A stretch of 53,041 nucleotides of DNA from Deltaproteobacteria bacterium (lineage in GTDB: Bacteria > Desulfobacterota > Desulfobacteria > Desulfobacterales > B30-G6). This document shows, piece after piece, positions 19,056 through 44,930 of this stretch. Below the pieces are notes generated by a model. It saw only the letters and a program-made list of their open reading frames with translations. It searched no databases and was not told where the DNA came from. The translations under genes and the position numbers were made by a program. Every line of letters starts with the position of its first letter. The first letter of the stretch is position 1. The stretch spans positions 1-53,041 of the forward strand of contig JAJDNW010000034.1 in the NCBI GenBank assembly GCA_022340465.1, written 5' to 3'.

Positions 19056-19637
19056 TCAATCGATCACGAAATGAGCGCGCCTGTTTTTTGCCCAGGCCTC
19101 CTCGTTTTTGGCGATGTCAACCGGACGCTCCTCACCATAGCTAATGGCGGAAAGCTGGCTGGCTTCAATGCCCATGTCCACAAAAAAGGCCATGGCACTC
19201 TGCGCCCGCCGATCACCAAGCGCGATATTGTAGGCCTCGGTTCCCCGTTCGTCACAGTGACCTTCGATGATCACGGAAGCATCCGGGTTCGCCCTGAGCC
19301 ATTCGGTTTTACGGATCAGCGACGCTTTGGCTGATTCCTTGAGTGCCGAACTGTCAAAATCGAAGTAAATATCCTCGTTTTCAAAGACCTGAGCGACCAT
19401 GTCGTCATTTGGCGCTTCTTCTTTTTCAACAACCTGTTTAGCCGCGTAAATTTCCTCTTCATCTTTTTCTTCCACCGCCGCCACAGGCGCCTGTTCGGCC
19501 GCACTTGCTTCCATGGCCGGGGCGGTTTCCTCGGCCGCCTGCTCCGTGTGCATGGCCTTTTTGGAGCACGCGGTAATAAAAATCAACCCCGGCAGAATCA
19601 ACAACAAGCAGATGCCTATCCATATTTTTTTCAACAT
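19056..19637 (-). CDS. pal: Pal-like peptidoglycan-associated OmpA-family lipoprotein
   Basis: This 193-residue protein has a lipoprotein signal peptide ending FITAC, then a Glu/Ala-rich linker (about 20-80) and a C-terminal OmpA/Pal domain (about 85-193). The domain has IYFDFDSSALK, VIIEGHCDERGT, YNIALGDRRAQSA, ISYGEERP and NRRAHFVI, including the Asp and Arg that bind diaminopimelate in Pal. It should sit in the outer membrane and grip peptidoglycan. It is the last gene of the ExbBD/TonB-like operon, the same relative place as Pal in tol-pal, but there is no tolB. The ATG at 19637 has GGAGGAG upstream. Confidence 0.9.
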   Translation of the reverse strand: MLKKIWIGICLLLILPGLIFITACSKKAMHTEQAAEETAPAMEASAAEQAPVAAVEEKDEEEIYAAKQVVEKEEAPNDDMVAQVFENEDIYFDFDSSALKESAKASLIRKTEWLRANPDASVIIEGHCDERGTEAYNIALGDRRAQSAMAFFVDMGIEASQLSAISYGEERPVDIAKNEEAWAKNRRAHFVID

Positions 19638-19762
19638 GTTCTCCTCCATTTCAAATTCAAAATAGATTGCATTAAAAATAACGTTGCTACCACCGCACGG
19701 TCAAAGCCTTTGCTTTTCCCTCGTTACATGACAGGTAGCGGCCCTCGGCGCAGTCAATTGAT

Positions 19763-20446
19763 TCACCCCCTTTCACTGTTCGCCACAACCGTCGAATCGC
19801 TTTGCGCTGCTTTCTGCCTTTGAGAGATGGAAATACCGTTCAAGGCCTTGACCGCCACCATCTCCAGACTGTCGATGATCTGTCCCGTAGTGGATGTTAT
19901 CTTGGCGTGAAAAAGCAGCAACGGTATGGCGGACATAAGGCCGAAGGCCGTGGTGTTCATCGCCACCGAAATACTGGCCGACAGCAAATCCGCCTTTTCT
20001 GCAGGATTGGCATTGGCCACAGCCGTAAAGGCTTGAATGAGGCCCATGATGGTGCCCAGCAGCCCCAGCAGCGTTGCGATGTTGGAAAGCAGAGCCACAT
20101 AAGGGGTACGCTTTTCCAGCTGGGGGATGATCTCCATCATGCTTTCCTCCATGGCGATCTCCACATCCTCCCTCCGTCGGGCCCCGCTGTGGCGTGACAG
20201 GCCCATGCCCAGCATTTTCGATATGTTGGACTTGTCTGTGCTGACGACCTTGCGAACCTTTTCGAGCTGCCCCTTTGACAGCATCGGATAGAGATTATCC
20301 CACACTTTTCGGTTGATGCTGCGCGTTCGGCTCAGCTGAAACCAGCGCTCCAGTGAGATGCTCAATCCGACCAGAAAAACGAGCAGAATTGGATACATGA
20401 ATACCCCCCCCTGTTGAAAAAACGACACGAATACCTTGATGCTCAT
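19763..20446 (-). CDS. MotA/TolQ/ExbB proton-channel protein, second copy (ExbB2)
   Basis: This 227-residue three-helix stator protein has MYPILLVFLVGLSISLERWFQL as helix 1 and the conserved helix 2/3 block TPYVALLSNIATLLGLLGTIMG and SISVAMNTTAFGLMSAIPLLLF. From EIAMEES to DSLEM it is identical for about 101 residues to the other ExbB in this operon (23079-23729), while the N- and C-terminal parts differ. The start at 20446 has GGAAGGAAAG upstream; the frame extends to 20533 without a good site. It would form a pentamer around ExbD helices and use the proton or sodium gradient. The TonB-like gene precedes it. Confidence 0.9.
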   Translation of the reverse strand: MSIKVFVSFFQQGGVFMYPILLVFLVGLSISLERWFQLSRTRSINRKVWDNLYPMLSKGQLEKVRKVVSTDKSNISKMLGMGLSRHSGARRREDVEIAMEESMMEIIPQLEKRTPYVALLSNIATLLGLLGTIMGLIQAFTAVANANPAEKADLLSASISVAMNTTAFGLMSAIPLLLFHAKITSTTGQIIDSLEMVAVKALNGISISQRQKAAQSDSTVVANSERG

Positions 20447-20568
20447 TTGCTCTTTCCTTCCGATGCCTGTTGCAGCCGTGGAATCCGGAAGCTGCAGATT
20501 GGATCGTTTCCAGTGGAAGCTAAATGCCGCCACCGCGAATGTTAATCGTCCATCCCATCGCCTTTGGG

Positions 20569-22104
20569 CTATCCAGCCGGCAGAAAATCAATGGGATATA
20601 ATATGGTCAATGCAGCCACGCCTTCCTTAGAGCCAAAATTGAATCTTTTAATACGTCCTATGATCTTGGCAACGAGTTTGTCGGAATCCAGGTCGGTGGA
20701 TTCCACCTTGCACATGGAAACGCTGCCATCGGCTTCAATGCTGAGACGTATCAGCATCTTCCCGCGCAGGGTCGGGTCCTTGCGCAGTTCCCTGTTGTAA
20801 ATTCTATAAAGGCTGGCCTTGTAGCGGTCGAACACAATCTGAATCTCTTCATCGGTTCGCCCCGGGCCGGGGCCGTCGCTGACGGGTCTGCCCGATTCCT
20901 CGATATTCGCAATGCCGCTTTCCACATTTTTAAAGCCGGCACCGTTGCCGGAGCTGCCGCCTTTACCGATGCCGTTGCCGCCCAGGCCATTGCCGTTGCC
21001 GCTGCCGACGTTGCGACTGAACGTGGCGAGACCGATACCGCCACTGGTACCGCCCTTGGCCTGCATGGCCACCAATGAACGTTGCGCCACGGCCTGGCCC
21101 TTTACCCTGGGGCTTTCCTTGCTCAAACGGGCATCCGTGCCGAGCTTGGCCACGGGGGTTTCATCGATAAGATCGGCAAAAGAGTTTTTGAAGGCAAGAA
21201 CACCCACGCGTTCAGCTTTTTTCCGGCTTCCCTTGGGATCTCCGCCACCGCCCCCAGCCTTCTGCGCCGGCTCCGCCTTGGGCTTTGACGCTACCGCTTT
21301 TTTGGCGATTTCCTGCTTCTCGGGCTCCGGTTTGGCCTTCTTCCGCTCCGTCTTTTTTGCGTCTTCTTCCGGTTTAGGCTTCTCGACATCTTCTTCCGCT
21401 TTCTGGGCGACCGGTTCCGGCTGCGGCACCGGTCGCGGTGGCTCCTGTTTCACCAGCTTGGCCAACCGCTTGGGAATTTCCACAACCGTGTCCTCAGGGC
21501 TGGGAAGCGGCACCGAAACCAGCTCGATAACGGTCCCCAGGATGAAACAAATCAACAGAGCGACAAGCAGCGCACGGCGAAAGCGTCTCTCACTTTCATT
21601 GTCCTTGGTCCAGGGCATGATCATCTTGCGGAAAGGCAAAGCGGAAACGTCCCGTTCGATGACGAATTCCTCCTTCCGCCGTTCTTCACGTTCATACGCA
21701 TCCCGAACCATTTCGTTGAGACCGTCCAGCTCGTCGAGCCTCTGTTCGATCTGCATCTGCAGCGCCGCTTGCTGCTCCAGAACCCCGTTGATCTTGCCTT
21801 CGAATCCGGCAATCTGCTCGCGCACTCGGCTCAGATGCTCTTCAGCATTTCGGGGCTGGTCGAGTCCTTCCCAGAAGAGTTCTTCGGCCTTCAGCTCACC
21901 AAGCCTTTCCAGCGCAGTGCATACCGCTTCCAAAGCATCTATTCGCTCTCTGTCCGAAGAAAACGTTTCCAACTCTGCTTCTACAGTGCGCAGCTCACTT
22001 TGAAGTCCTTCGAGCTTTTCACGCGTTTGCTCGATCTGCGCATGCAAAGGCGCCAGTTCTTCTGCTAATAATGTAGTATCCACAATATTCCCGCTATGTT
22101 TGGG
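20569..22104 (-). CDS. TonB/TolA-like energy transducer of the AgmX/PglI type
   Basis: The product is about 511 residues. Residues 1-165 are a predicted coiled coil (heptad-like EQTREKLEGLQSELRTVEAE), followed by one transmembrane helix (ALLVALLICFILGTVIELV, about 178-196). A Pro/Lys/Glu-rich periplasmic spacer, a Gly/Asn-rich stretch and a C-terminal TonB-like domain follow, with EEIQIVFDRYKASLYRIYNREL, GKMLIRLSIEADGSV and a final ILYPIDFLPA. The C-terminal pattern matches AgmX/PglI-type proteins linked to gliding in myxobacteria. The long cytoplasmic coiled coil is unlike classical TonB or TolA. The ATG at 22104 overlaps the end of exbD2; an upstream TTG at 22125 is possible. Confidence 0.85.
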   Translation of the reverse strand, partial: PKHSGNIVDTTLLAEELAPLHAQIEQTREKLEGLQSELRTVEAELETFSSDRERIDALEAVCTALERLGELKAEELFWEGLDQPRNAEEHLSRVREQIAGFEGKINGVLEQQAALQMQIEQRLDELDGLNEMVRDAYEREERRKEEFVIERDVSALPFRKMIMPWTKDNESERRFRRALLVALLICFILGTVIELVSVPLPSPEDTVVEIPKRLAKLVKQEPPRPVPQPEPVAQKAEEDVEKPKPEEDAKKTERKKAKPEPEKQEIAKKAVASKPKAEPAQKAGGGGGDPKGSRKKAERVGVLAFKNSFADLIDETPVAKLGTDARLSKESPRVKGQAVAQRSLVAMQAKGGTSGGIGLATFSRNVGSGNGNGLGGNGIGKGGSSGNGAGFKNVESGIANIEESGRPVSDGPGPGRTDEEIQIVFDRYKASLYRIYNRELRKDPTLRGKMLIRLSIEADGSVSMCKVESTDLDSDKLVAKIIGRIKRFNFGSKEGVAALTILYPIDFLPAG

Positions 22105-22588
22105 CATCCTTCTGGGTGACGGCAAGGGAAATCCTTCCGTATCCAGAACTTGTGCAAGTTGACATTATTTTTTTGAGTGCTCTGAATGGGATCATCTTGT
22201 CGGCTAGGATGGTAACCTCCTTGCCGTCAACGGCCGCTTTAGAGTGTATACCGATAATATTGCGTTCGAGCTGCGCCAGGCGATCGGCTATTTCAGGTAC
22301 CGAGAGCTCATCGGCATCCAGCAATTGGTCCGTGTTGATCACGGCTTCACCCTGCACCAGAACGATCTCGGGGCTTACCATGATCACGACGGTCTCTCTG
22401 GGCTTGGCCTCTACGATCGAGTCGGGCAGCTTGATCTGCCTGGGTGTTTCCAGAATCTCGCTGCTCCCGGAGTGAAAAAGGAGAAAAAAGACTAAAATGG
22501 TGAACACGTCCATTAACGACGTCAGGGGCAGGCTCAGCACCTTTTTCTTGTTGCGCTCCATTCGTCTTATGCGTCGACTGCTTCTCAT
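22094..22588 (-). CDS. ExbD/TolR-family protein with the channel aspartate (ExbD2)
   Basis: This 164-residue protein has a basic cytoplasmic start (RRIRRMERNKKK), a single transmembrane helix (LTSLMDVFTILVFFLLFHSG) and a periplasmic ExbD/TolR domain. Asp 27 is in the position of the essential proton-carrying Asp of ExbD/TolR. Its ATG overlaps the upstream exbD1 stop in ATGA, so the two should be made in near-equal amounts. The C-terminal 11 bases overlap the TonB-like gene. See exbD1, which lacks this Asp. Confidence 0.9.
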   Translation of the reverse strand: MRSSRRIRRMERNKKKVLSLPLTSLMDVFTILVFFLLFHSGSSEILETPRQIKLPDSIVEAKPRETVVIMVSPEIVLVQGEAVINTDQLLDADELSVPEIADRLAQLERNIIGIHSKAAVDGKEVTILADKMIPFRALKKIMSTCTSSGYGRISLAVTQKDAQT

Positions 22589-23076
22589 GGTGCGTCTCCT
22601 ATGGATATTTCTGGAAAAAGTACGATTTTCTGTTCGTCTTCGCCCGCTTCAAGCGGCTGTCTGGTTCCGCGTACCGCATCCATGATCTGAATCAGATAGT
22701 CGTACTCAATATCCGGTTCCATCAAAACGGTTGCATCCTCCTTCTCCGGATATTGGGCCTTTAACCGTAGAAGCATTTTAGAAAGCAGCGCCATGTCGTA
22801 CGATCCCTCTTTTTTCGGTATGGCGGCTTCCACAGACGATCCGTTGGCGATCTCGAACCCATTTTTGCGGACAATGACTTCGATGGCAAAATTGGGCTTA
22901 TTCGTAACCGTTCCCCCCGCACTGATGGGTACGCTCAACTCCATAATGGTTATTCTCGAAAAAACCGCGCTGATGAGTAGAAAGGGTATCAGCGCCACCA
23001 TCAAGTTGAGAAACGAAGTAATGTTCAACTCCGGTGTCTCAACCATTCGCTTCCTAAAACGGTGTCTTCTGCTCAT
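22585..23076 (-). CDS. ExbD/TolR-family protein lacking the channel aspartate (ExbD1)
   Basis: This 163-residue protein has an N-terminal ELNITSFLNLMVALIPFLLI transmembrane helix and a periplasmic domain (KDATVLMEPDIEYDYLIQIMDAV-like ending). Asn 24 occupies the place of the essential Asp of ExbD/TolR, in SFLNLM compared with SLMDVF of ExbD2. ExbD works as a dimer inside the ExbB ring, so this protein is probably one half of an ExbD1-ExbD2 heterodimer with one protonatable site. It follows exbB1 by 2 bases and overlaps exbD2 by 4. Confidence 0.88.
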   Translation of the reverse strand: MSRRHRFRKRMVETPELNITSFLNLMVALIPFLLISAVFSRITIMELSVPISAGGTVTNKPNFAIEVIVRKNGFEIANGSSVEAAIPKKEGSYDMALLSKMLLRLKAQYPEKEDATVLMEPDIEYDYLIQIMDAVRGTRQPLEAGEDEQKIVLFPEISIGDAP

Positions 23077-23078
23077 AA

Positions 23079-23729
23079 TTAACTCGCCTCAAATTTGCGC
23101 CTGGCAAAATTGGAGATATTATTGAGTGCCTTGACAGAGGCCATCTCCAGGCTGTCGATGATCTGCCCTGTAGTGGATGTTATCTTAGCGTGAAAAAGCA
23201 GCAACGGTATGGCCGACATGAGGCCGAAGGCCGTGGTATTCATGGCCACCGAGATACTGGCCGACAGCAAATCGGCCTTTTCTGCGGGGTTGGCATTGGC
23301 CACGGCCGTAAAGGCTTGAATCAGCCCCATAATTGTACCCAGAAGCCCCAACAGGGTGGCAATGTTGGACAGCAGGGCCACGTAGGGGGTGCGCTTTTCC
23401 AATTGGGGAATAATTTCCATCATGCTCTCTTCCATGGCGATTTCGATGTCTTCGCGACGCCGAACCGCCCCCTGGCGTGCCAGACCCATGCTCAGCATCT
23501 GGGCAACACTGGACTTGTCCTTGCTGACGATTTCGCGTGCTTTTTCAAACTGACCCTTGGACAACAACGGTTGCAGGCGCCCCCAGATTTTACTGTTTGC
23601 ATTGCGCACACGGTTCAACTGGATCATGCGTTCGATTGCAATGGCCATACCCACTGCAAACACAAGCATGATCGGATACATGAACATTCCGCCTCTTTGA
23701 AAAAATGAAATCATTGAATAAAATCCCAT
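23079..23729 (-). CDS. MotA/TolQ/ExbB proton-channel protein, first copy (ExbB1)
   Basis: This 216-residue protein has the three-helix layout of ExbB/TolQ: MYPIMLVFAVGMAIAIERMIQL, then a cytoplasmic REDIEIAMEESMMEIIPQLE region and helices 2 and 3. It differs from ExbB2 at the N-terminus (MGFYSMISFFQRGG) and in the last 15 residues, but shares a 101-residue identical core. AAGGAGG lies about 9 bases before the ATG, the strongest ribosome site in the operon. It is tightly packed with exbD1 and exbD2 and should form their stator. Confidence 0.9.
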   Translation of the reverse strand: MGFYSMISFFQRGGMFMYPIMLVFAVGMAIAIERMIQLNRVRNANSKIWGRLQPLLSKGQFEKAREIVSKDKSSVAQMLSMGLARQGAVRRREDIEIAMEESMMEIIPQLEKRTPYVALLSNIATLLGLLGTIMGLIQAFTAVANANPAEKADLLSASISVAMNTTAFGLMSAIPLLLFHAKITSTTGQIIDSLEMASVKALNNISNFARRKFEAS

Positions 23730-23773: not shown

Positions 23774-24154
23774 TTAACGAGTCTGACCGCCCGTACTGAT
23801 GCGGTAGAACTCCAACTGCCTTTTGAATACGTCCATATCGACCGGCACATCCTTCTCGTTCAGCATGACGTTCAAGCTGGTTTCCGACCCAATTTCCGAA
23901 CTCTTCCAGGGTACGATATAGAGCGACTTGGGGGCTTCATCATTGCCCACGATCGACATGCCGGAAAGTTCCTTGGCGGCCGCGGTTTTTCCCACTACCG
24001 CCACTTTTTCTTTTTCTCCATGAACCGGCTCCGCCACGGACACGGCCGCCATAAACAGGGATAACAACAGGTACAGCACCCATTGGGGACCGATAAATGC
24101 AGGGTCAATGATCCTGCTGCCTGTCTTCTGAATCCTATTTGATTTTTCCCTCAT
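23774..24154 (-). CDS. Small exported or membrane-anchored protein, unknown
   Basis: This 126-residue protein has one N-terminal hydrophobic segment (QWVLYLLLSLFMAAVSVAEP, about 25-42). It is followed by a polar region with SGMSIVGNDEAPKSLYIVPW and a C-terminal FKRQLEFYRIST. No family is recognised. The ATG at 24154 has GGGGGAAA upstream; a GTG at 24175 is in frame but lacks a site. It lies between the TPR lipoprotein and exbB1 in the operon. The conserved-looking 'ELSG...GNDEAPKSLYIVPWK' core suggests a periplasmic partner of the ExbBD complex. That is inference. Confidence 0.75.
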   Translation of the reverse strand: MREKSNRIQKTGSRIIDPAFIGPQWVLYLLLSLFMAAVSVAEPVHGEKEKVAVVGKTAAAKELSGMSIVGNDEAPKSLYIVPWKSSEIGSETSLNVMLNEKDVPVDMDVFKRQLEFYRISTGGQTR

Positions 24155-24217
24155 CGATTTCCCCCTACCCCGCACCTCATTGTCGCCTTTTTGGACAGGC
24201 CACGCGATAGCCGGCAG

Positions 24218-24913
24218 TCATTGCGTTTCCCCAAGCCGACTCCGCAGATCCGCAATCCATAATTTGACCTTGTCGTCCTGCTGCATGGCTTGACTGTAAA
24301 TTTCGTAATGCTCAAGCGCTGCGTTCAGGTCGTTTAGATAAAATTCATATAGAATGCCGAGATTCCGATGAAGCGGATAATAATCGGGAAAACGCGCCAG
24401 GGCTCGCTCGTATATGTTGCGGGCCTCGTCAAAACGCCCGGTTTTGCGCAACAGCAATCCATACTGGTTACATGCCACCGGATGGTCGGGAACCAGTTCC
24501 AGCGCAGCTTTGAACTGGGCTTCAGCCTTTTCAAGTTGCCCCAACTGCTGATAGGCCATCCCCAGATTGATATGGGGAGCCGTGACGCCCGGTGAGGCTT
24601 TGGTGACACTTTCCAAAAGACCGATGGCCTCTTCGTACGCTTTTTCATGAAACATGGTGACGGCCCTTTCAAAATCGCTGCGTGCAGCATCGCTCAGCTG
24701 CGCCCTTTCGATGATAATGAAACCCTCCCAGCCATTCTCGAAGCGTGCGATCGAGGGACCCGGGTCAACGGGCGGTGGCAGCGGTTGGGCTGCCGGCTTG
24801 GTGCCGGTGCTGGTTGCACATCCGCACATCATCGCCAGAGCCGCCGCCGCGACGACAGCCAAGAACCAATATCGTGTTTGCAAACACCATCGCCTCCCAT
24901 ATATGCCTGACAT
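24218..24913 (-). CDS. TPR-repeat lipoprotein
   Basis: This 231-residue protein has a signal peptide ending near MMCGC, so Cys lipidation is likely (two candidate Cys). It carries about four TPR units (AVTMFHEKAYEEAIGLLES, PHINLGMAYQQLGQLEKAEAQF, CNQYGLLLRKTGRFDEARNIYERAL, YPLHRNLGILYEFYLNDLNAALEHY). TPRs mediate protein contacts, so it may be an assembly factor for the envelope complex. GGAGGGAAGG precedes the ATG at 24913. It begins 26 bases after the large TPR gene. Confidence 0.85.
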   Translation of the reverse strand: MSGIYGRRWCLQTRYWFLAVVAAAALAMMCGCATSTGTKPAAQPLPPPVDPGPSIARFENGWEGFIIIERAQLSDAARSDFERAVTMFHEKAYEEAIGLLESVTKASPGVTAPHINLGMAYQQLGQLEKAEAQFKAALELVPDHPVACNQYGLLLRKTGRFDEARNIYERALARFPDYYPLHRNLGILYEFYLNDLNAALEHYEIYSQAMQQDDKVKLWIADLRSRLGETQ

Positions 24914-24939
24914 GGTACCTTCCCTCCTTTGGCCCGTCC

Positions 24940-27900
24940 TCATGGTCGCTTCACTTCCTGCGGACCTTCATGATCGTCACTTTCAACCCCAGATTCCCCG
25001 TCGGCCCACAACACCAATTCACTGGCTGCCTCGGGTACAGTGGTCCTCGTTTCCGGAGATTCTACGGCAACAGCACCCGGTGACGGATTGTCGAGGCGGG
25101 TTTCCAGTCTAGGTTCTGCCTCGCCAACAGGCTCAGGCACGATGACCGGGACCCTTTCACCGGGTGTAACGTCGGCTTCCGGCAGGGGCTGATCCGTACG
25201 GGTGTCCGTCTTTGCCTCGGCGCCTTTCGCAGGCTCCGCTACCGGTGCCTCGACTTCCTCGCTGGAAGCTGCGGCGGTTGCCGGATGGAACTGTTCCGCC
25301 CGGGTATTCGTCTTTGCTTCGGCGCCTTCCGCAGGCTCCGCTACCGGTGCCTCGACTTCCTCGCCGGAAGCTGCGGCGGTTGCCGGATGGAACTGTTCCG
25401 CCCAGGTGTCCGTCATTACACCGGCGTCAGCTGCAGGCCCCGCTTCAGCTGTCGGGCTTTCTTCGTCAATGAGCCCAGACGGATCTGGTTGGTCGGCCAC
25501 GAGGGAATCGGGCATATCCGACGGGGTGTTTGCTTCCGGCCTGGCAAAGGCAAATATATACGTTTCCAGGGAACCGACCACATCGCTGTCTTCTTCGGGT
25601 TTGTCGTAACGGGCCGGTACGCTTATCGCCAATTTTTGAAGGCTCTTGTCGATCCAATCATTGTAAACGCCACGGGAAATGAGCTCGAGGTTGCTCTCGT
25701 GAACTTCGATGGCCTTCTCTTCAAAAGGATAGGCCTGATCCTCGATTTCCAACTCGTATTCTTCAAGTTCCAAAGGCGTCAGGCCTTCCGGACGTTCCGA
25801 AGCCATCAGCGCGTGGCTGAAATGGGCATATATCTCGGCCAGATAAAAGATGGCCCCGGCCGTAATCTCTCCCATCTCATAATCCATGAGACGGTTGAAC
25901 TCCTTGACCGCCTGCTTCATCAAGGACTGCTTCCGGCTCAGGTTGACCTGAATTGGCTTGACCAGATCGACGCCTACGAATTTTTCATAGGTGACCTCGG
26001 CCAGCACCATTGCGGCGTTTCCGGCCAGATAACGGGTTCTTGGCGTACGGTCGCTTCCAGCGGCAGCGTCGATGGCGACGATCTGGTCGAGTTCCGCCAG
26101 GTATTCCTGTCTGTCGTTCTGTGCTTTCAGGATTTCGGCGATTTTATTGCGCGTCTCCAGATTGAGTTCCAGCGGTTGCGGGAAGTAGGCCACATACCGC
26201 CGGTAAACCGCCAAAGCCTTGATGGATTCGTCTTCCCGGGCATACAGTTCCGCCGCAATCTGAAGGGCATCCCGCCGGACATCATCATCCGAGGATTCGG
26301 TTTCGATGCGCTCATACTCCCGGGCCGCAAGCAGGCGCTGGCCACTCTCCTTGTAAACATACGCCATCTTCTTGGTCACTTCCGGTTGGAGCTCATGTTC
26401 CGGAAAACTGGTTCGGAAGGCCTTGAGCACGGCTGCCGCCTCGTCCCACGCTTCGAGCTGAATCAAAGCCGCCGCGCCGTCATATTCGGCATTAGCCCGG
26501 ATGGTCGAGGTTGGCGCTACGCGTCCGACCCTTAAAAAATGATCGGCAGCGGCCCGGTAGTCCTCGGCAGCATTGGCTTGTTCGCCCTGTTTGTATATGG
26601 AGGCCGCGAGGTTATCCACCAGGCCCGGGCGTGTCTCATCGTCGGCCGGCAGCAAATTCAACACCTCAATATATGCGAGCTCCGCTGTCTGGTAATTCTG
26701 GAGTTCGTAAGCGGAGTGAGCGCTGATCAACCACGCGGTAAGCCTGATTTTTTCATCAGCATCGGGGTAATTCTCCAACAGCCTGGTTCCTGCTGAAAAA
26801 GACTGCTCGTAATCCTTCATGGCGTAAAGGTCCTCGGCCGCCGCCCCAAGGACGACTGCCGCCTTTTCATGATCCGGAAAATGGTCGACAAATTTTACAG
26901 AGACGCGCACGATATCTCTCTTGACGGCATCTTCCCTTTCCGGCGCGGTTTTTTCCAGCTGCTTGCGAAGGGCATAGACCGCAGCGTAACCGGCACCGGC
27001 GGATTGGTCATGAGAGGGGTAAGCGTATGCTGTCTTTTCATATTCAGCGGCCGCCCGGGCGTAATCCAGGCTCTCCAGGAACAGGTCAGCCAATTGATAG
27101 TTGATGGCCGGCGATTCTTCATCCGTTGGAAATGACGCCAGAAAATCGCGGTACCAATGAACCGCCTCTTTGAAATGGCGCGTCTTTTCCTCGGCTTCCG
27201 GCGCTTTCTGGTAGGCGGAATGGTAATGATGGGCCAAGTCGACCAGATTGATCTTCAAACTGTCCAAAACATCCTGGCGGTCGCTGGGCTCGAAATAGTT
27301 CCAGTATGGGGCGTTGAGGCCATAGTTTTTTGCAAAGGCTTTTTTGTCCTCCAGGACCAGGCTGGGAAATCCTCCGGCGGTATGGATGTCGATGATCCGC
27401 ATGTGAAAATTGGGCGACTGCCGATGAAAGGGGTTGCGGCTCACGAACGCTTCGTAGGTGGCACTGGCGTCGGCGTATCGACGCTTGTCAAGGTAAAATT
27501 CAGCCAGGTTGCTGTAGACGCTGTCCTCGTAGCTGCGCTTGCCGTGGCTGGAAAAATATTCCACCACGGAATCGGCACCGCCAAGGTTGGAGAAACCCAA
27601 ACTGATGACGCGGAAGGTATCTTCCATACGCTTGCGTTCGGTGTCATCTTCGATATGATAGAAATCGTAGCCCAGCGACTTTTTATGGTCCAGCAGGGCA
27701 ACGAAACGATGCTGAGCCTCCTCGTACAGCTCTTGCTTGTAAAACGTCCAGCCCAGTTTGTAGAGGGCCATTTCAAAATAAGATGACCCCGCACCCAAAT
27801 CTACGATACTCTGATAGGCGTCTTCGGCCTCCAGGTATTTCCGCCGGGTGAAAAAATATTCCGCACGCCGGAACTGAATTTCATCGATATAGCGCGATTG

Positions 27901-30983: not shown

Positions 30984-31069
30984 AATGATCCCCCGTTTTC
31001 CCGGTAGGCACACCTACAAGCATGTGATCCTTTTTTGTTCTATCCGCCATCCTTTATTGCCTGCATCTA

Positions 31070-31108
31070 AAAACAAAAAGCCCTCGGGCAAATATCCCCA
31101 AAGGCTTT
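31070..31108 (-). terminator. Expression-platform terminator of riboswitch 1
   Basis: On the minus strand AAAGCC pairs with GGGCTTT, with an inner GGG/CCC stem, and TTTTTGTTTTT follows. It lies directly 3' of the aptamer. It is a Rho-independent terminator whose formation is expected to depend on ligand binding. The same hairpin design follows riboswitches 2 and 3. Confidence 0.8.
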
Positions 31109-31114
31109 GACGAG

Positions 31115-31205
31115 TAGTTTCGGAAACCCGGCTGTCATAGCTTAACAAGCTTTAGACCCGTGGCTTTGCGTCCCCGCCTTTCAACAGGTTTGCCCTTTCG
31201 TTCTA
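31115..31205 (-). ncRNA. c-di-GMP-I (GEMM-I) riboswitch 1, controlling the ExbBD/TPR operon
   Basis: On the minus strand the aptamer reads GGGCAAACC, then a GAAA tetraloop stem, GGGGACGCAAAGCC, ACGGGTCTAA and GACAGCCGGG. These are the conserved GEMM-I core elements in the order found in Geobacter and Desulfobacterota members. By my alignment the position equivalent to Vc2 G20 is G, which favours c-di-GMP over cGAMP; this is a by-eye call. It lies between a strong promoter (31217-31245) and the terminator at 31070-31108, upstream of 11 same-strand genes. Confidence 0.92.
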
Positions 31206-36387: not shown

Positions 36388-36389
36388 TA

Positions 36390-39300
36390 TCAACGCTCCC
36401 CAAACGGCTTGCCCCGCCGCCAAAAAACTTCGGTTTCAATACTCAGACGATACTGACCGTTAGACTTCTTCCACTGTCGGCTGACCTTTTTCTTCAATGC
36501 TGCCACTCTTTTATTGACCAGGCTTTTGCTTTCCACGTCAGCCAGGTAAGACAGGCGCAGGACCGACGGGGCTTTGTGCAATTCATCGATCAGCATGGCG
36601 AGTCTGGGCTTCCACTGCAGGCGCATGGTGCTGCTGCCGGGCTCGAAAACGCCGTCGGCGATATCGAGCCGCACCACGCGGTGGATGGTGGCACCAAAGT
36701 TGAAGCGCAGCATTTTACCGCGGGTGGCCCGCTGAACGCGGGGGTTCTCAGTGGTCAAACGATAACCCGACGGCAGGCTGCGGTCGTCTAACTTGAGTAT
36801 GAAATTGCTACCGCGGTTTTGATCGGGTACGGTTGCACAGGTGATGTGGAAACGTCCGTGCTTGTCGGTACTGGCAATCAAACCACGGGCCGTCACTACA
36901 CGAACCCCAGCCAATCCTAACTCGCCGCGATCTTGCCACCCGTCCAGGTTGCGGTCGTCGAAAACCTTGCCGATCACATCGGTGCAGTCGAAATCCGGGT
37001 CCGGAACGACCTGCACGGTGGCGGTCGCCTCACCCGAGATTCTGGTATTGGTGGCACGTTTTAACACATAGGCACTGTTGACATATTCACCTTCGGAAAC
37101 GCCTGAGCCCACGACCAGTAGCAACTGGAGAGTCAGCGTCTCGTTGACCTGCAGGTCCAGATTTTCCCAACTCAGTTCACGACCGTCGACCTGCGGCTCG
37201 AAACGATTGCCGTTCAACCGGCTGGAATCGGCCATATACTTGAACCCGGCCGGAAAATGGTCGACGATGCTGATGTCATACAGCGGCACACCATACACAT
37301 TGCTTACCGTAATCGTGTAGGGCACCAGCTCTCCACGGGAAACGTTGATCGAAGAAGAGGTTTTGGTGATGGCCACGGCCCCGTCCAGTACCGGATCGAC
37401 AGGAATGGCGTTGTTGAATATCTGGCTCTGGCCCGGCATGCTGGTATCATTGAGCAGCAGGCTCAAATAATAGGTCGTTCCGGTGGTGCGCGCTAGGACC
37501 GCAACCGGCGGAACGGTTGTATAACCGGTCACCTCGCAGTACTCGGCAGTTGCCGGAACCGCATCGTTGACGCTGCCTAGACATTCCGGAACAGAAAACG
37601 GCAAGGTGGTCGCATCGCTGGCAGGAGGAATGACCTGGGATTGATCGGCCATGTACCCATTCGCCGGCGGCGTCACCTCTATGAAATAGGTACCGCCGGG
37701 GGGACAGGCGGCCTCGCTGAAATTGAGATCGAACTTGTAGAAGCCGTCCTGAGCCGTAATCTGGGACTGCTGGATAGGATCGTCAAAACAACTGCTCGGC
37801 ACGCTGGCGCCGGTGGCCGCGTTCACCAAAGACAGGGAAGCGCCGGGTACCGGTACGCGGGAGATGGAGTTGTATACAGTACCGTTGGGCCAGATGGGCA
37901 GGTTTAAATTTTGCAGAATTCCTCCCGGGGATACGCTTATATCGCTGATGCGCTGCGGACTATTGGTGAATATGGAATCCGCGTAACCCAGCGAAGGGGT
38001 ATGTGACCCGGCACCCGCGGCACGGAAGCGCAGTTCGTAGAGTTCGGAAGATCCTGCATTGGGAGCCACACCGGAAAGTCGATAGGTACCATCGGCATTC
38101 GTCCGCACCGTTGCGAGCAGTTGATCATTGCGATACAACTCGACTGCCCAACCTTCAAGATGCCGCTCGTTGCTCTCATCCTGCCTGTTCAGGTTGCCAT
38201 CATGCCAGACGGTGCCATTGAAGGTAGCGCTGCTCGGTGTTCCGCCCACATCCAGACTAACCGCGTCCGTTGCGGTCTGGCTCGCGTTATTCCAACTGAC
38301 GACACCGGTATTGGTGAGCGTTGTTCCTATCGGCACCGATGATTCAACCTGCACACGGAAGCGCACCACAACCGAAGCGGCGCTTGGTAAATCGCCATAC
38401 TGGGCAGTGAGGATCGTGTCTGCATAGCTGACGCCAAGCGGGGAACCATTCATGCTTGCCGACCCGGGGACATAGGTCACCTGCCCGGCCATCGGGCTCA
38501 AATCGTCGGTCACCCTCACTTGTGTGGCCGTCCGATTGGCGATGTTGCTCACACGGATAACGTATTCGAGCTGGCTTCCGGCGATAGCTGCACCACCATT
38601 GACTACAAACACCTCTTTGACGATACTCAACAGCTGCGCATCGCCCACAACGACCTGCGTCGGCTGGTCGCCGTTGGTGTCGATACCGTCGGCATCGGTG
38701 GGCTCGTCTAGCGACTCATTGGTGCTCACCACCCCCTGGTTACTGATGATGGTTCCAGGCGTAACCCCGTCATTCACCCGAACATCGAAGGTGATCCGTG
38801 CCGTCGCCCCCATTGACAGTGTGCCGTTACCGCTGCCCGGCAAAGGCGGCGCCTGGTCGGAAGAACTCACGTCGATGCCTGAGGTCAGGGGAGAATTCCC
38901 TCCGTCCGGTTGACCGACCGGGAGGTCGTTCAGGTAAACGGAATCGGGGATATAGGTCGTGTCGGCAGGCACCGCATCGGTGAAGATCACGCCGGTGGCA
39001 GGGGCCGCACCTGAATTGGAGATGACGATGGTGTAACGCAGATCGTCACCCGGATCCACGATTCCGTCCGAGTTGTTGTCAACTAAAAGCGTCACTGTCT
39101 TGTGGGCATCCACCAGCGGAAAATTCCCCACGACATCCAGGGTCGGGTCATCCAAAGCCGTTGTTGCCGGATCGTCGGACGGCTCTCCGGAAACCGGGCC
39201 GGAGCCCTGGCCTTCGGCATCGACGAAGCCCTGGTTGGCGACAATGGTGCCGTCGACGACATCGCTGTCGATCACCACGTCGAAGGTGATCCTTGCCACA

Positions 39301-42300
39301 TTGGTGGCGTCTGCCGCAGCATCGGCACGCATGTAGCCCGCGGTCGTGTTCTCGGGAGCGTTTATCAGCATGCCGCTTTGCAACGGAGAGACGCCGGAAG
39401 AAGGATCGTACACCGCTATCCCGTTCAGACGCGTGGTTCCGGGAACATAGGTGGTGTGGGCAGGGATCTGATCCTGCAGAACCGTATTGACACTGTTCTC
39501 GCTGCCGACATTCTTGACGGTAATGGTATAACGCAGGGAATCGCCGGCCACTAGCTCATCGGGAGTACCGGTGATGTCCCGGGACGTTTTCCAGACGTCA
39601 AAGGCTGGCGAAGAACTGATCAGGGTAGACGTCTGGTTGCTCGGTGTCGCCGTCAAATTGTCAGCCGTCACCCGGGCCTGATTCAAAACCGCCAGGCCGC
39701 TTTGGATAGCAGAAGCCAGGGTCGCCTCGAACACGATGGTCACGCTATCGTTGGCGCTCCCCTGGGCATCGAGGGTTAGATTGCGAACATCGAGCATGCC
39801 CGTGTTGTTGACCCCGCCGGCGCCATCGGTGCTGGTAATGTCGGCGTCTTCGTCGGAAACGTCGACGATTTGCAGGCTGCCGGGAACAAACTGCGCCGCC
39901 AGCTCATCCACCACCACTGGATTGCTCAAAGCCACGATACTGTGATTGGTGAGCACCAGGGTGTAGCGAAGCGTATCTCCGGGTTGGGCGTTTTGCCCCG
40001 GATCTTCTCCGGTGGTCGCGTTGACAACCGATTTTACCAACGAGACATCCAGTCTGGTCCTCGTGGTCCTAACGGCCTGACCGGTAAAGTAGTCGTTCAC
40101 GGCCGGAGTGCCTGATCCGGTGCGCTCCAAGTCACTGTCACCGTTTAATCCGGTCCACCGGGCGATGGCATTATTGGTCAGATCCTGCCCGGCCTGAACG
40201 CCTGCGAGCACCTGTACGTCGTAGGTAACCGTAACGACCGTACCTTCGGCCACGTCGATGTCCGCATTGCCCTCGGCCGGACTCCAAATCAATGTCTGAA
40301 CGTCACCCACCCCGTCGCCTGAAACAATCGGCTCGGCAATGATGTTGTCAATGCCCTCCACTGTCGCGGTTTCGGCCTGATAGGCCAGGCCCAGGCTCAG
40401 CGTATCTTCTATCGAAATGTCGAAAGCATCCGCAAAGCTGCCTCCTGAAGCACCACCGCCGGCGGTGAGGCTCAAGCGGTAGCGCAAAATATCCCCGGCA
40501 CTCGGCGCCACCTCCGGGTTGCTCACGTTTTCAACGGTCTTGACAAGGGTCAGCAAGGGTTCCACGATGGTTACCGGAGCGCTGGTGGAAGCGGTATCCA
40601 AGTCTGCCGGCATATCCGCATACGTGTAGGAAGCCGTATTGGCGACACTGTCACCGGCGTTGGCCTGGTCGTTGTTAACCACCCGCGTTCTCAGCGTGAT
40701 GATGACCTGTCCACCGGCAGGAATACTCGTGATCCCCAGGCGCACGTCACCGGGCAGGGTGGTGCCGCTGTCGTTCAACGGCACCTCATTGTCGGCCGCA
40801 TCCACCGCACTGGCATTGACATATTCCAGGGCCGGGTGCAGATTGTCGGCGACGACGACATCCTCCAACGCCGTGTTGACAGGCACGGCGGGCACTCTGA
40901 TTTCATAGACAACGTCGTCGCCGACGGTCGCTTCTGCCGATGACACGAGCGTCTTCAGCAACTGCTCATCGCTTGTAAGATTCGTCATCCACACTTCCGC
41001 CAAACCCCCGGGCGAGTAGACCCGACCCGATTCCGCAGGCGGCAGCGACCTGTATTCGAGCAACCTCGCCTGGTTGCTCCAGCTTGTTGAAGCCGAAATA
41101 TCCGTATGAAAACCGATGTCGTAATCGACGAAAAGGCATTCACCCGGCTGCACGGAGGCATTGTTCAGAAGCGAGATCTCCATCTCACCGCCGCGGGGGG
41201 GGAGTGTGATGGCATAATCGATGCCCGAACTCAACGGAGTTGTGCCGATGGTCACCACTGGTGAATTGGCGGTAAGAGCACTTTCGTCAAACGCCGTCGC
41301 CAACTGATCCGTAACTACCAGGCCGTAAGCCGGCGCAAGGCCCTCGTTGCACGATGACAGCCTGAAATGCATCACATCGCCGGCGATGTCGACCTGGTAG
41401 GGGTCGGCCGCGGTTCCGGTGCCGACCCGCCCGGTGCCCTGATCGACTTTGGTGATGACGCTCATGCGCGGCTGACGGACTTCAATCCTATCCGCAGCGG
41501 TCAAACGATCGGGATAAGCCACCGGATCACCGCCGGTGTAGGTAAGCCGGGCCAGGTTATCGAGCCGAATACTGGTGTCCTCGTTCACACCAGCCGGCGC
41601 CGCATCGGCAACCACGCCTGCCACAACCCGAATAACAAGTGTATCGATGGGCGTTCCGTTATCGCTGGGTGGATTGGTGATATCACCGAATTCCCACCGC
41701 AGGGTCCCGGTAGCGCCGGCCGCAGGTTGCGGCGCCAACAACGTATAAATGAAGTTGTCGCCACCGATGATGCTGAAGCTTTGCAGTGCCATTCCTTCCG
41801 GGAGGACATCTTCCACGACCACGTTTCCGGTGGTATACTCTTGAAGATTCAGGGTCAAATCATAGCTTACGGTGTCACCGACACGGACAACCGGGTCACC
41901 TGTACTGGGCGGCGTTTCGGCATAGGAGTCTTCGAATACCGCTTTGGCGATGGAAGTGTCGTCGCTTGTGGCGATGCCGATCGAGGCGGGGCCGAAGCAA
42001 TAATCATCTAGGGCATCACTCGTGGGGCAGCCGGTACCCGTGCGTTCCGACAGGGATCCACCGTCAAGCGAAGTCCAATCCACATAGACACTGTTATCGA
42101 TGTCTGCACTGGTGACCGATGTGAGCCTCACCTGATAGGTGATCACCAAATCATGGCCGGCAGGGATATCGAGCGTTAAATCGCCGTTATCCCGCCCCCA
42201 AACGAGACTGCCGTCCACGAGAACGGTCGGCGTCGCTGCAAAGCCGACAACACTGACGTCATCGATTTGTGCAGCGGCCGAATCCGCGACCAGAGACATA

Positions 42301-44930
42301 TTCGCCGGCAGCGTGTCGACGATGTTCGTGTCATAGGCAGGGGAGTCGCCATTGTTGGAAATGGTGACCCGGTATTCGAGAAAATCGCCCGCCGTGGCCG
42401 GGTCGGTCGGCAGTTTATCCGCCGGCGAGACGAAACGAACCGTCTTGTCGGCTGAGAGATCCGGTTCAACGATGACCATATCCAACGTGCCGCCGGCACC
42501 GCCAACCGTTTGCGTCGCGTTGTTGCCGTTTCTGCGGTTGAAGGTGTAGGAGGCGCTGTTGGCAAAGTGTAAACCGCTCTGGTTGGGCATTGTGTTTTGC
42601 AGCTCCACCGTAATATCGATAACCGCCTGACCGTTGGGTGGAATGTCGATGCCGGTAGCCGCGTCCTCGATGACCAGGTTGGTGGTGCTGCCGGTATTGC
42701 TAAGGCCCCACGCGCCGCCGGACACAACCGTCGCGCTCACGAAGCTCATATCGGCATCTGACAGGCTCAAATCGTCTAAAATCCGGACATCGTAAAGGTA
42801 GGAGGCAATGGGGGTTGCCGGTATCGTGATGCGGTAGCTGAACCGTTCGCCGATGGTTGCCGTCTCCTGAGTGGTTTCTTTCAGCAGGGGACCCGCCCGC
42901 TGGATGATCACCGTTGTAGGATCGGCAGGATCGCCGGGAGCGGCGATGCCGTTTATATACGGGTCGTCGCTCAAGGCCGTGATACCGGTGGCGTCGAGCG
43001 TTGCCTGGTTTTCGACCACGGTGCTGCTGTCGATGGCCGTCTTCAGCGTGATCTCGAATTCAACGATCAGTTCGTCGCCGACGGCTACGTTCAGGGGCGC
43101 ACCGTCACCGTCTATCTGCAAGAGGCCGGTAACGGCATCGTAGGAGTAGTCGGCGCCGTCAGGCGGCGGGGTCACCATGGCAAAGCTGGCCAGATCGAAG
43201 TTTTCCGGGTCGAGCTGATCACCGATGCTGATGTTGTTGATGGTCTGGTCGACATTGAAAAGGCGCACCCGGTAGCGGAGCCTGTCGCCCGGAGTCGCGA
43301 GACTGGCGGGGTCCATGCCGCTGTCGATATTGGATACGGTCTTCTGAAAGTAGTATCCGGCCAGTGCGGTCGTCACCGTCTCACTGTCCTGGGAATCCGC
43401 CACACCCGGTGTACCGTCGGTGAGCGTCCGGTCGTACTGGCGGCGGCCGGTAAAGCTATCTTCACCGCTGAACCATTGGGTGGCGCCGGCTATATTGGTG
43501 AGTTCCAACCCGTCGTCCCTAACATTGCCATTGAGCTGGGATTGATAGGTGACAATCATGTGCTGGGAAGCGCCGATGACCGCGGCGGGGGAGTCCATGG
43601 TCAGGCTGAGCCGGCAGTGGGGCGCACCGGTATACGTCACGGAATAGTCGATGCCCCGAGTCAATACACCTGAAACCGGGGTGACGCCGTCGGCGGAAAA
43701 AACCTGAACACTGAGGCCCGATCCTGTCGTAGGATCGTATTCGCACATCTCCGCAGGTATTTCGTCCACAATCGTGGTGTTCCATGCATCGCTGCCGCCG
43801 AGGTTTCGCGCATCGATTTGAAAAGTTGTCGTGTCACCGAGATTCAAGGCCGTTTCGCTGCTGGTTTTGTTGACCACTAGATCGGGCTCGGCGATGATCA
43901 TAGGATCCGAAACGCCCGACTCGCCGGGAAGGGGCTCATAAGGCACACCGTCGATAAGTCGTCCGAAGGACCACTTGGCGGTATTGGTAAACACGGTCCC
44001 GGGGGCATTCGACGGGTCGTCGTCCAGGGTCACCGTGATTTCCAGAATGATTTGCTTCCCGGCGGGGATTGTCGGAAGGCTGTCGAAATCGAACGTAAGC
44101 AGGCCACCGGCGTTCGTGAATGCCGGTGACACGGACGTATTACTCCCCTGCCAATAGGCGTTATGGCTCACATAGGTCAGGGCTGCGCCCGTGGCGTTGA
44201 GATCGTCACTGACAATGACACTGTGCAGTTCGTTCAGAGATCCGCTGTCGTCGATAACAGCCCCTGTGCCGGCGTCATAGAGGACCGGAATCGTCAGTGT
44301 GTAAGTGAAGGGCACACCGATGGTGGCGGAAACGGCCGGGCTTTGCTTTACGATTTTCTCCACCGGAATTAAAAGATTTTGACAGCCTTCCTGGATGGCG
44401 CTAGACGAGCCGTTGACAAACCAGACCGTATGACCGGCAACGGTGTTACACGACATCTGCCCGGTGTGATAAACATTATCGAAAATGACAAGATAGGAAG
44501 TTGTATCGTTGTTGTCGAAGCTGAAATTGGTGCTCATCCCGTAGGGGAAATTTAGGATCGTACAGTCTGTGTCTATCTTGATGTTATCCGGGGCAGTGTG
44601 GATGTTACCATCGATCACCCCTTCGTAGGGCGGGTCAGAACAATTGAACTGATCGGCATAAACAGCGTCGGGCGTACCCGAGAGCAATAGGGCAAATGTC
44701 AGAAAAGATAAGCAAAGATGAAAAGATCGATACGAGGCATTAAACGCACAACTACCCGGCCGGTGCTTAATCCTGTCAACTATTTTAAACCACGGGGCAA
44801 AAGATAGTCTTATCCAGGCATAACCGAGTTTTATTATCGCTGAACGGATGTGCGATATGATGTGGCCGGCCCAACTTTTTAATTTTGCTCTTTTCACCAA
44901 AATAGGGAGTTCCCTTTGCTGGAAGGGCAA
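36390..44930 (-). CDS. Giant DUF11/SdrD-B surface protein with OmpA-like C-terminus
   Basis: Up to 2,846 residues. A long N-terminal extension (about 85 residues) precedes the hydrophobic signal HLCLSFLTFALLLSG. About 14 DUF11-type beta-sandwich units follow (pattern 'KTV...GDxLxYxIxVxNxG...V.DxLP'), then an SdrD-B unit with a Ca-binding-like loop (HDGNLNRQDESNE), a Cna-B-like unit, another DUF11 and a second SdrD-B (DDRNLDGWQDRGE). The last 110 residues look like an OmpA-type domain (RLSYLAD...LVNKRVAALKKKV). This is an extracellular stalk or adhesin design. No good ribosome site marks the TTG at 44930; TTG 44900 or GTG 44897 are alternatives. A c-di-GMP riboswitch lies just upstream. Confidence 0.88.
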   Translation of the reverse strand: MPFQQRELPILVKRAKLKSWAGHIISHIRSAIIKLGYAWIRLSFAPWFKIVDRIKHRPGSCAFNASYRSFHLCLSFLTFALLLSGTPDAVYADQFNCSDPPYEGVIDGNIHTAPDNIKIDTDCTILNFPYGMSTNFSFDNNDTTSYLVIFDNVYHTGQMSCNTVAGHTVWFVNGSSSAIQEGCQNLLIPVEKIVKQSPAVSATIGVPFTYTLTIPVLYDAGTGAVIDDSGSLNELHSVIVSDDLNATGAALTYVSHNAYWQGSNTSVSPAFTNAGGLLTFDFDSLPTIPAGKQIILEITVTLDDDPSNAPGTVFTNTAKWSFGRLIDGVPYEPLPGESGVSDPMIIAEPDLVVNKTSSETALNLGDTTTFQIDARNLGGSDAWNTTIVDEIPAEMCEYDPTTGSGLSVQVFSADGVTPVSGVLTRGIDYSVTYTGAPHCRLSLTMDSPAAVIGASQHMIVTYQSQLNGNVRDDGLELTNIAGATQWFSGEDSFTGRRQYDRTLTDGTPGVADSQDSETVTTALAGYYFQKTVSNIDSGMDPASLATPGDRLRYRVRLFNVDQTINNISIGDQLDPENFDLASFAMVTPPPDGADYSYDAVTGLLQIDGDGAPLNVAVGDELIVEFEITLKTAIDSSTVVENQATLDATGITALSDDPYINGIAAPGDPADPTTVIIQRAGPLLKETTQETATIGERFSYRITIPATPIASYLYDVRILDDLSLSDADMSFVSATVVSGGAWGLSNTGSTTNLVIEDAATGIDIPPNGQAVIDITVELQNTMPNQSGLHFANSASYTFNRRNGNNATQTVGGAGGTLDMVIVEPDLSADKTVRFVSPADKLPTDPATAGDFLEYRVTISNNGDSPAYDTNIVDTLPANMSLVADSAAAQIDDVSVVGFAATPTVLVDGSLVWGRDNGDLTLDIPAGHDLVITYQVRLTSVTSADIDNSVYVDWTSLDGGSLSERTGTGCPTSDALDDYCFGPASIGIATSDDTSIAKAVFEDSYAETPPSTGDPVVRVGDTVSYDLTLNLQEYTTGNVVVEDVLPEGMALQSFSIIGGDNFIYTLLAPQPAAGATGTLRWEFGDITNPPSDNGTPIDTLVIRVVAGVVADAAPAGVNEDTSIRLDNLARLTYTGGDPVAYPDRLTAADRIEVRQPRMSVITKVDQGTGRVGTGTAADPYQVDIAGDVMHFRLSSCNEGLAPAYGLVVTDQLATAFDESALTANSPVVTIGTTPLSSGIDYAITLPPRGGEMEISLLNNASVQPGECLFVDYDIGFHTDISASTSWSNQARLLEYRSLPPAESGRVYSPGGLAEVWMTNLTSDEQLLKTLVSSAEATVGDDVVYEIRVPAVPVNTALEDVVVADNLHPALEYVNASAVDAADNEVPLNDSGTTLPGDVRLGITSIPAGGQVIITLRTRVVNNDQANAGDSVANTASYTYADMPADLDTASTSAPVTIVEPLLTLVKTVENVSNPEVAPSAGDILRYRLSLTAGGGASGGSFADAFDISIEDTLSLGLAYQAETATVEGIDNIIAEPIVSGDGVGDVQTLIWSPAEGNADIDVAEGTVVTVTYDVQVLAGVQAGQDLTNNAIARWTGLNGDSDLERTGSGTPAVNDYFTGQAVRTTRTRLDVSLVKSVVNATTGEDPGQNAQPGDTLRYTLVLTNHSIVALSNPVVVDELAAQFVPGSLQIVDVSDEDADITSTDGAGGVNNTGMLDVRNLTLDAQGSANDSVTIVFEATLASAIQSGLAVLNQARVTADNLTATPSNQTSTLISSSPAFDVWKTSRDITGTPDELVAGDSLRYTITVKNVGSENSVNTVLQDQIPAHTTYVPGTTRLNGIAVYDPSSGVSPLQSGMLINAPENTTAGYMRADAAADATNVARITFDVVIDSDVVDGTIVANQGFVDAEGQGSGPVSGEPSDDPATTALDDPTLDVVGNFPLVDAHKTVTLLVDNNSDGIVDPGDDLRYTIVISNSGAAPATGVIFTDAVPADTTYIPDSVYLNDLPVGQPDGGNSPLTSGIDVSSSDQAPPLPGSGNGTLSMGATARITFDVRVNDGVTPGTIISNQGVVSTNESLDEPTDADGIDTNGDQPTQVVVGDAQLLSIVKEVFVVNGGAAIAGSQLEYVIRVSNIANRTATQVRVTDDLSPMAGQVTYVPGSASMNGSPLGVSYADTILTAQYGDLPSAASVVVRFRVQVESSVPIGTTLTNTGVVSWNNASQTATDAVSLDVGGTPSSATFNGTVWHDGNLNRQDESNERHLEGWAVELYRNDQLLATVRTNADGTYRLSGVAPNAGSSELYELRFRAAGAGSHTPSLGYADSIFTNSPQRISDISVSPGGILQNLNLPIWPNGTVYNSISRVPVPGASLSLVNAATGASVPSSCFDDPIQQSQITAQDGFYKFDLNFSEAACPPGGTYFIEVTPPANGYMADQSQVIPPASDATTLPFSVPECLGSVNDAVPATAEYCEVTGYTTVPPVAVLARTTGTTYYLSLLLNDTSMPGQSQIFNNAIPVDPVLDGAVAITKTSSSINVSRGELVPYTITVSNVYGVPLYDISIVDHFPAGFKYMADSSRLNGNRFEPQVDGRELSWENLDLQVNETLTLQLLLVVGSGVSEGEYVNSAYVLKRATNTRISGEATATVQVVPDPDFDCTDVIGKVFDDRNLDGWQDRGELGLAGVRVVTARGLIASTDKHGRFHITCATVPDQNRGSNFILKLDDRSLPSGYRLTTENPRVQRATRGKMLRFNFGATIHRVVRLDIADGVFEPGSSTMRLQWKPRLAMLIDELHKAPSVLRLSYLADVESKSLVNKRVAALKKKVSRQWKKSNGQYRLSIETEVFWRRGKPFGER

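Follow-up and report, generated by a model that had tools for sequence, protein, structure and literature searches.

We found that a compact region of a deltaproteobacterial contig joins an ExbB/ExbD-type motor gene set to the genes for a giant surface-type protein and a large outer-membrane barrel, with predicted cyclic di-GMP riboswitches placed before both parts. Our preferred reading, to which we assign a probability of about 0.6, is that the region encodes one c-di-GMP-regulated, proton-driven envelope machine that acts on an outer-membrane-anchored, giant adhesin-like stalk.

Organization of the gene cluster

The window, that is, the whole stretch of 53,041 nucleotides that we analysed, corresponds to contig C34; the assembly from which it comes has 162 contigs and spans 4.39 Mb. 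Thirteen open reading frames lie between 45.0 and 19.0 kb, closely packed, the spacing or overlap between neighbours ranging from a few bases up to about 250 bp. All are on the minus strand, as is every feature of the window described below. The genes named in an earlier interpretation of this DNA, made from its letters alone (the sequence-only reading), are open frames on this strand at or very near the positions it gave, and Pfam and NCBIfam agree with its assignments. Two small conserved genes, h181 and h133, were not named there; neither encoded protein has a family match in Pfam or NCBIfam. Unit B consists of the giant protein and the barrel, and unit C of h181 and the motor, transducer and scaffold genes that follow.

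Unit C resembles the Agl–Glt core complex

In 2011, Luciano et al. described an Agl–Glt 'core complex' made up of gltC, gltD, gltE, gltG, aglR, aglQ, aglS and one additional gene, found it clustered in non-deltaproteobacteria and in Geobacter, and left its function open (PMC3169522). The gene set of unit C equals this core. It forms a single cluster in which one ExbB/AglR-type motor gene (ExbBa, 23079–23729; PF01618, E = 7e-25) lies with two different ExbD genes corresponding to AglQ and AglS (ExbDa, 22585–23076, and ExbDb, 22094–22588; both PF02472). The single extra gene, h181 (30468–31013), encodes a conserved exported protein, heads nearly every unit C that we examined and may correspond to the 'additional gene' described by Luciano et al. 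The predicted force transducer (20569–22125) carries the AgmX/PglI C-terminal domain (NF033768, 57.9 bits against a cut-off of 40), matches the GltG model NF033760 with E = 9e-14 and has the GltG-type features of a single transmembrane span, a proline-rich stretch and a TonB-like C terminus.

The remaining core positions are filled by TPR proteins: the GltC-like TPR631 (28569–30464; 43–65% identity in barrel-linked clusters), the GltD-like lipoprotein TPR1210 (24940–28572) and a GltE-like lipoprotein of 241 amino acids (24218–24943), the latter two each with a lipobox. When family HMMs built on unit C were run against GltG loci of Myxococcota, they matched the proteins at the GltD position with E values of 2e-35 to 5e-48, those at the GltE position with 3e-22 to 1e-29 (partly a generic TPR signal) and the GltG C terminus with 2e-10 to 5e-13. 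The TPR631 HMM matched the frame preceding GltD weakly (E = 1.5e-10 to 7e-6), and the length and position of that frame fit. The GltC/D/E/G gene order of Myxococcota agrees with that of unit C. The small exported protein h133 (23774–24175) keeps its position across the 38 family sequences collected; we considered it as a candidate GltF and found no match. It is very probable, on this evidence, that unit C is a standalone Agl–Glt core complex, and the likeness to Agl/Glt proposed in the sequence-only reading proves to be specific.

The same reading had also suggested a resemblance to a gliding motor. In such a machine, the DUF11 stalk would be an adhesin dragged along the cell, in the way that SprB or CglB is moved in other gliders. 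This would suit a unit C that equals the ancestral core of the Agl–Glt machinery, and Agl–Nfs is known to transport surface cargo in Myxococcus (PMC3858216). However, the core by itself was reported to be insufficient for motility (PMC3169522), the GltG and GltJ models scored far below their cut-offs (51 of 650 and 37 of 450 bits), no gliding-specific NCBIfam model reached its cut-off and no gliding-specific gene was recognised. For the gliding Group A genes (gltA, B, F, H, I, J and K), no NCBIfam model scored above cut-off in the scanned proteins, and the models may not cover all of these genes. We therefore regard a gliding machine as unlikely and find no support for this part of the earlier proposal.

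Conserved residues in the predicted stator differ between the two ExbDs. At the pore position, ExbDa has asparagine in 37 of 40 sequences in place of the usual aspartate, whereas ExbDb has aspartate in 39 of 39; the pore threonine residues of ExbB are conserved, with the pore threonine invariant in 38 of 38. AglQ and AglS, by comparison, are both predicted to bear the conserved aspartate (PMC9389320), a trait not known to define the core. This Asn/Asp difference, conserved across phyla, implies a putatively asymmetric stator. The same pattern is present in a second flavour of core complex in Gammaproteobacteria (L286–L297, for example L286:2762–18448). There, no DUF11 gene or barrel lies beside the core; its neighbours encode an exported protein of about 950 amino acids containing CxxCH, an ApbE-like protein, a thioredoxin-like protein and a 400-amino-acid outer-membrane-type protein, which we take to be DUF3570-like. 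These neighbours suggest that the second flavour has a different cargo, perhaps a redox-related one.

The Pal and second ExbB genes are local additions

Downstream of the transducer are a second ExbB gene (19763–20533; MotA_ExbB) and a gene for a Pal-type OmpA lipoprotein (19056–19649; TIGR02802, 132.7 bits against a cut-off of 125). The second ExbB gene is 82% identical to that of ExbBa over 443 bp of DNA, consistent with duplication or gene conversion. Neither the second ExbB nor Pal was found in any other cluster examined, including that of G063, and the inclusion of two ExbBs and Pal in the conserved system, as in the sequence-only reading, is not supported.

These genes bear on the possibility that the cluster serves Tol–Pal- or TonB-type envelope maintenance or uptake, the DUF11 protein being a surface-layer-like coat whose linkage to the motor is merely co-regulation. 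ExbB and ExbD, a TonB-like transducer, Pal and OmpA domains are all present, as this explanation would predict. Against it, the TolQ and TolR models score far under their cut-offs (60 of 221 and 22 of 127 bits), Pal is absent from all the other clusters examined, and the co-inheritance and gene fusion described below exceed what mere co-regulation would require. The absence of tolB that had been noted holds for the cluster; the genome encodes TolB elsewhere, at C85 and C30. As the canonical tolB is located there, the motor of unit C is an additional one. We judge envelope maintenance or uptake to be improbable, and a Tol–Pal-like function, as earlier proposed, is unsupported.

Unit B pairs a giant DUF11 protein with a large barrel

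The first gene of unit B (36390–44930) encodes a surface-type protein of 2846 amino acids in which Pfam and NCBIfam detected DUF11 in seven stretches (E = 8e-60), RrgB-type isopeptide-forming domains (E = 5e-55) and SdrD_B. Its C-terminal domain is conserved among relatives; an OmpA-like domain suspected there by eye was rejected, as profile comparison gave it a probability of 0.1%. The second gene (31261–36423) encodes a protein of 1720 amino acids with peptidoglycan-binding OmpA domains (Pfam, E = 4e-22) and, on its C-terminal side, a barrel. We modelled residues 607–1720 with AlphaFold from 66 sequences (mean pLDDT 77, pTM 0.75), having discarded a six-sequence model with a pLDDT of 47, and counted about 38 strands of barrel length. 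The best structural matches of the model were FimD ushers (Z = 15.0 and 14.8, with an rmsd of 10–15 Å and TM scores of 0.1–0.25), followed by VDAC and porins at Z of about 12, where the next unrelated entry also scored 12.0; Foldseek matches included LptD and SprA (SprA, E = 7e-7). The predicted structure fits a very large outer-membrane barrel, which does not in itself prove an export function.

Gene fusions supported a direct partnership between the DUF11 protein and the barrel. In five loci (G048, L129, L152, L154 and L158), the two are fused as one open reading frame; in G048 this frame has 3160 amino acids, with DUF11 repeats at the N terminus and the barrel at the C terminus. In the fused protein, SdrD_B-type sequence continues directly into the segment preceding the barrel.

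The barrel also raises the possibility of a secretion system, in which an usher- or SprA-like barrel serves as the export pore, the motor energises the export or release of the DUF11 protein, and the stalk is static from then on. The FimD and SprA matches point in this direction, as do the fusions, whose N-terminal repeats and C-terminal barrel are arranged as in autotransporters; motor-coupled export of a giant adhesin also has a precedent in SiiAB, named type I secretion (PMC12204202). However, the usher match is weak given its rmsd and TM values, none of the cluster genes codes for a chaperone, an ABC transporter or a sorting protein, and the peptidoglycan-binding OmpA domains suggest an anchor. 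Dedicated secretion is thus a possible but distinctly less probable account than a machine that acts on an anchored stalk.

Two variants of unit B were seen elsewhere. A short-barrel class (L168–L175; Marinobacter, Pseudomonas subflava, Methylophaga and others) has a DUF11 partner and no core complex. In some Microbulbifer (L111, L112, L114 and L115), two DUF11–barrel pairs stand in tandem behind a single core complex, an arrangement that suggests interchangeable cargo.

Units B and C are adjacent in many genomes

Among 297 sampled genomes of the phylum, few had a relative of the barrel that matched over most of its length: G063 at 63% identity, G202 at 40%, and G260, G048 and G194 each at about 31%. 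All 11 genes recur in unchanged order in G063, at 36–70% identity, preceded by a tandem pair of c-di-GMP-I-GGC aptamers. A more divergent unit C occurs without unit B in 18 other genomes of the phylum, and unit B occurs without an adjoining unit C in G202, G260 and G048; the partnership is therefore obligate for neither half.

When the barrel alignment was run against 85,000 species genomes, at least 479 relatives were obtained, and we retained the best 80. In Desulfuromonadales (L100–L108), the order is DUF11–barrel–h181–TPR–TPR–TPR lipoprotein–h133–ExbB–ExbD–ExbD–AgmX. The rotated order, h181...AgmX–DUF11–barrel, was seen in about 30 regions from Gammaproteobacteria, Acidobacteria and Myxococcota, with AgmX immediately before DUF11 in several gammaproteobacterial and acidobacterial loci. 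The units thus appear as B–C or C–B depending on lineage, and the 35 regions that we examined hold the rotated or unrotated cluster with few gaps within each region's reach.

Among 49 of the best 80 of at least 479 relatives, the GltC-like TPR631 was present in 38 of 41 long-barrel genomes and in 0 of 8 short-barrel genomes (Fisher P = 4e-7). TPR631 and the barrel share one contig and strand in 31 of those 38 genomes, again among the best 80 of at least 479, and lie within 31 kb of each other in 29; in the remaining seven, they are on separate contigs of draft genomes. We also drew 274 gammaproteobacterial genomes without bias; eight of them had strong TPR631 matches and nine a long barrel, with all eight shared (hypergeometric P of about 1e-14, or 2e-12 when short barrels are counted; the cut-offs were placed at the score gap after the scores had been seen). 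Pairwise distances of the barrel and of five unit C proteins were correlated with r = 0.69–0.96, compared with permutation maxima below 0.38, a pattern that fits co-inheritance.

We are close to certain from these data that B and C are partners. That they are chance neighbours in this genome might be argued from the genomes in which each unit stands alone; however, the 31 of 38 genomes with both on one contig and strand and the P value of the gammaproteobacterial sample already contradict this idea, and we give it almost no weight. The sequence-only reading had tied its proposal to the co-occurrence of the two units in related genomes; both are adjacent in many genomes across Desulfuromonadales, Gammaproteobacteria, Acidobacteria and Myxococcota, and so the refutation that it named fails. 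Its statement that no described system has this exact composition stands for the whole set, but not for unit C, which had been described by itself as the core complex. DUF11 is not mentioned in the main text of Luciano et al. (PMC3169522), and our searches of the accessible literature for DUF11 with ExbB, OmpA or TPR gave nothing relevant. As far as the searched literature shows, the link of the core complex to a giant DUF11 protein and a barrel is unreported.

Predicted c-di-GMP riboswitches precede both units

Control by c-di-GMP, as proposed earlier, gained direct support from Rfam, which detected three c-di-GMP-I aptamers (RF01051) in the window at 82–87 bits against a cut-off of 35. They lie before the DUF11 gene of unit B (45011–45096, 84.6 bits), before h181 of unit C (31119–31204, 86.8 bits) and before an rlpA-type gene (46382–46467, 81.8 bits). 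The whole genome has five such aptamers, and the probability that three of the five fall inside 15.4 kb by chance is about 3e-4. Each is preceded by a promoter-like site, TTGACA-17/18-TATACT/TATGCT, with the −10 element ending 12–17 nucleotides upstream of the aptamer; the spacing and −10 element are 17 and TATACT for unit C and 18 and TATGCT for the rlpA-type gene. Terminator-like hairpins follow downstream, among them those at 44965–45000 for unit B and 31073–31108 for unit C; two of the hairpins are near-identical. With a promoter-like site and an aptamer of its own, each unit looks like a separately started transcript that answers to one signal. In the unit C leader, folding showed that AAAGGC of the aptamer can pair with GCCTTT of the terminator, which is not clearly so in the other two leaders. 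The regulation could have either sign, ON or OFF. The aptamers were assigned to c-di-GMP-I by sequence model score, and c-di-GMP, as opposed to 3′,3′-cGAMP, is their predicted ligand.

To extend the comparison, we ran a covariance model built on seven aptamers over 142 sequences and found aptamers in about 14 other genomes, from Desulfuromonadales, Woeseiaceae, Lysobacter, Steroidobacter, Acidobacteria, Myxococcota and others. Seven of these loci were rechecked with Rfam, and all were above a cut-off. All matches above 45 bits sit before DUF11 or h181, or before rlpA in the window; elsewhere, the strong matches are 3 to about 840 nucleotides ahead of DUF11 or h181. The Microbulbifer and Nitrosomonadales clusters had no match above 45 bits to this model; c-di-GMP control is therefore a common feature but not one that all clusters share. 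Tandem c-di-GMP-I aptamers precede the DUF11 gene at L027:12682–13143 (G063) and L277:16743–17034; both of those in G063 are of the c-di-GMP-I-GGC variant, for which the ligand may differ. Our searches of the accessible literature gave nothing relevant on a link of c-di-GMP-I riboswitches to DUF11 or to such a machine.

The third aptamer belongs to a separate operon under the same kind of riboswitch. Its first gene (45842–46267), which starts 114 nucleotides past the riboswitch, encodes an RlpA-family (DPBB) lytic transglycosylase lipoprotein of 141 amino acids (TIGR00413, 129 bits against a cut-off of 82), and the second (45272–45766) a small outer-membrane-type protein of 164 amino acids, so classed by its sequence, with a weak DUF3996 match alone. 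In Myxococcus, the link between the gliding complex and peptidoglycan is made by another transglycosylase, AgmT (PMC11444678), and the riboswitch-linked rlpA operon may represent a functional parallel. We considered the RlpA–outer-membrane protein operon as a part of the conserved system and set it aside, as no relative lies beside the other clusters examined.

Discussion

We propose the following mechanism for a c-di-GMP-regulated machine that acts on an anchored stalk. Unit C would supply an AglR-like ExbB motor, two AglQ/S-like ExbDs and a GltG-like, TonB-type transducer, with GltC-, GltD- and GltE-like TPR scaffolds extending to the outer membrane. Unit B would be a dedicated surface module, in which the giant DUF11 stalk is anchored to, or passed through, the barrel that carries the peptidoglycan-binding OmpA domains. 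Proton flow through ExbB/ExbD would be relayed by the transducer and the TPR scaffolds to the barrel–stalk complex, and the stalk would be exported, extended, pulled or moved, as an adhesin. The c-di-GMP-I riboswitches before B and C would set transcription in two or more transcription units. We infer physical contact between the two modules and an adhesive role for the stalk, and consider it somewhat probable that the motor exerts force on the stalk; its purpose may lie in display, secretion, adhesion or gliding. We know of no adhesion or gliding phenotype for such a cluster.

The core complex has been regarded as a standalone machine whose specialisation was suggested to depend on its cargo (Wartel 2013; PMC3858216), and its purpose has been unassigned since 2011 in many bacteria not known to glide (PMC3169522, PMC3858216). 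We found a distinct core-complex lineage that almost always lies beside one giant surface protein and one barrel, often with c-di-GMP riboswitches; for the purpose of the core, this offers a cargo and a signal that are concrete and can be tested. Carriers include the cultured genera Microbulbifer, Geotalea and Lysobacter, and the lineage would bear on the evolution of gliding and on c-di-GMP control of surface attachment in Geobacter-like bacteria. More speculatively, the clusters might represent an unnamed, widespread class of surface machines, in which a giant DUF11 fibre is exported or moved, through or together with an usher-like barrel of about 38 strands, by a c-di-GMP-gated, proton-driven Agl–Glt core whose stator is asymmetric; this could be the ancestral function behind Myxococcus gliding.

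Several known systems share parts of this composition. The leaders are like known c-di-GMP-I (GEMM-I) riboswitches in having an RF01051 aptamer with a promoter before it and a terminator-like hairpin after it. Tol–Pal shares the ExbB/ExbD motor and the TonB-like transducer, and Pal in this genome only, but the cluster lacks TolB, its proteins score below the Tol cut-offs and the genome has a separate tolB locus. Unlike chaperone–usher systems, the cluster has no periplasmic chaperone. GldLM and type IX secretion with SprB would work alike, with a proton-motive-force-driven motor, a large outer-membrane barrel and a giant mobile adhesin; however, no Gld gene was recognised here, and the SprA match denotes a large barrel only. 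The SiiAB motor is linked to the giant adhesin SiiE. Such a pairing of a proton-motive-force-driven motor with a giant adhesin (PMC12204202) is similar to the one proposed here, except that our cluster has an Agl–Glt-like scaffold instead of ABC exporter or membrane-fusion genes. The Myxococcus Agl–Glt gliding and Agl–Nfs spore-coat machines have a like motor, transducer, TPR core and surface cargo, but their cargo is slime, CglB or spore-coat glycan, whereas in our cluster a protein stalk that has a barrel of its own is the candidate. Closest is the Agl–Glt core complex, which unit C resembles in content, clustering and scattered distribution; here, by contrast, riboswitches, an OmpA-barrel and a giant DUF11 protein accompany it.
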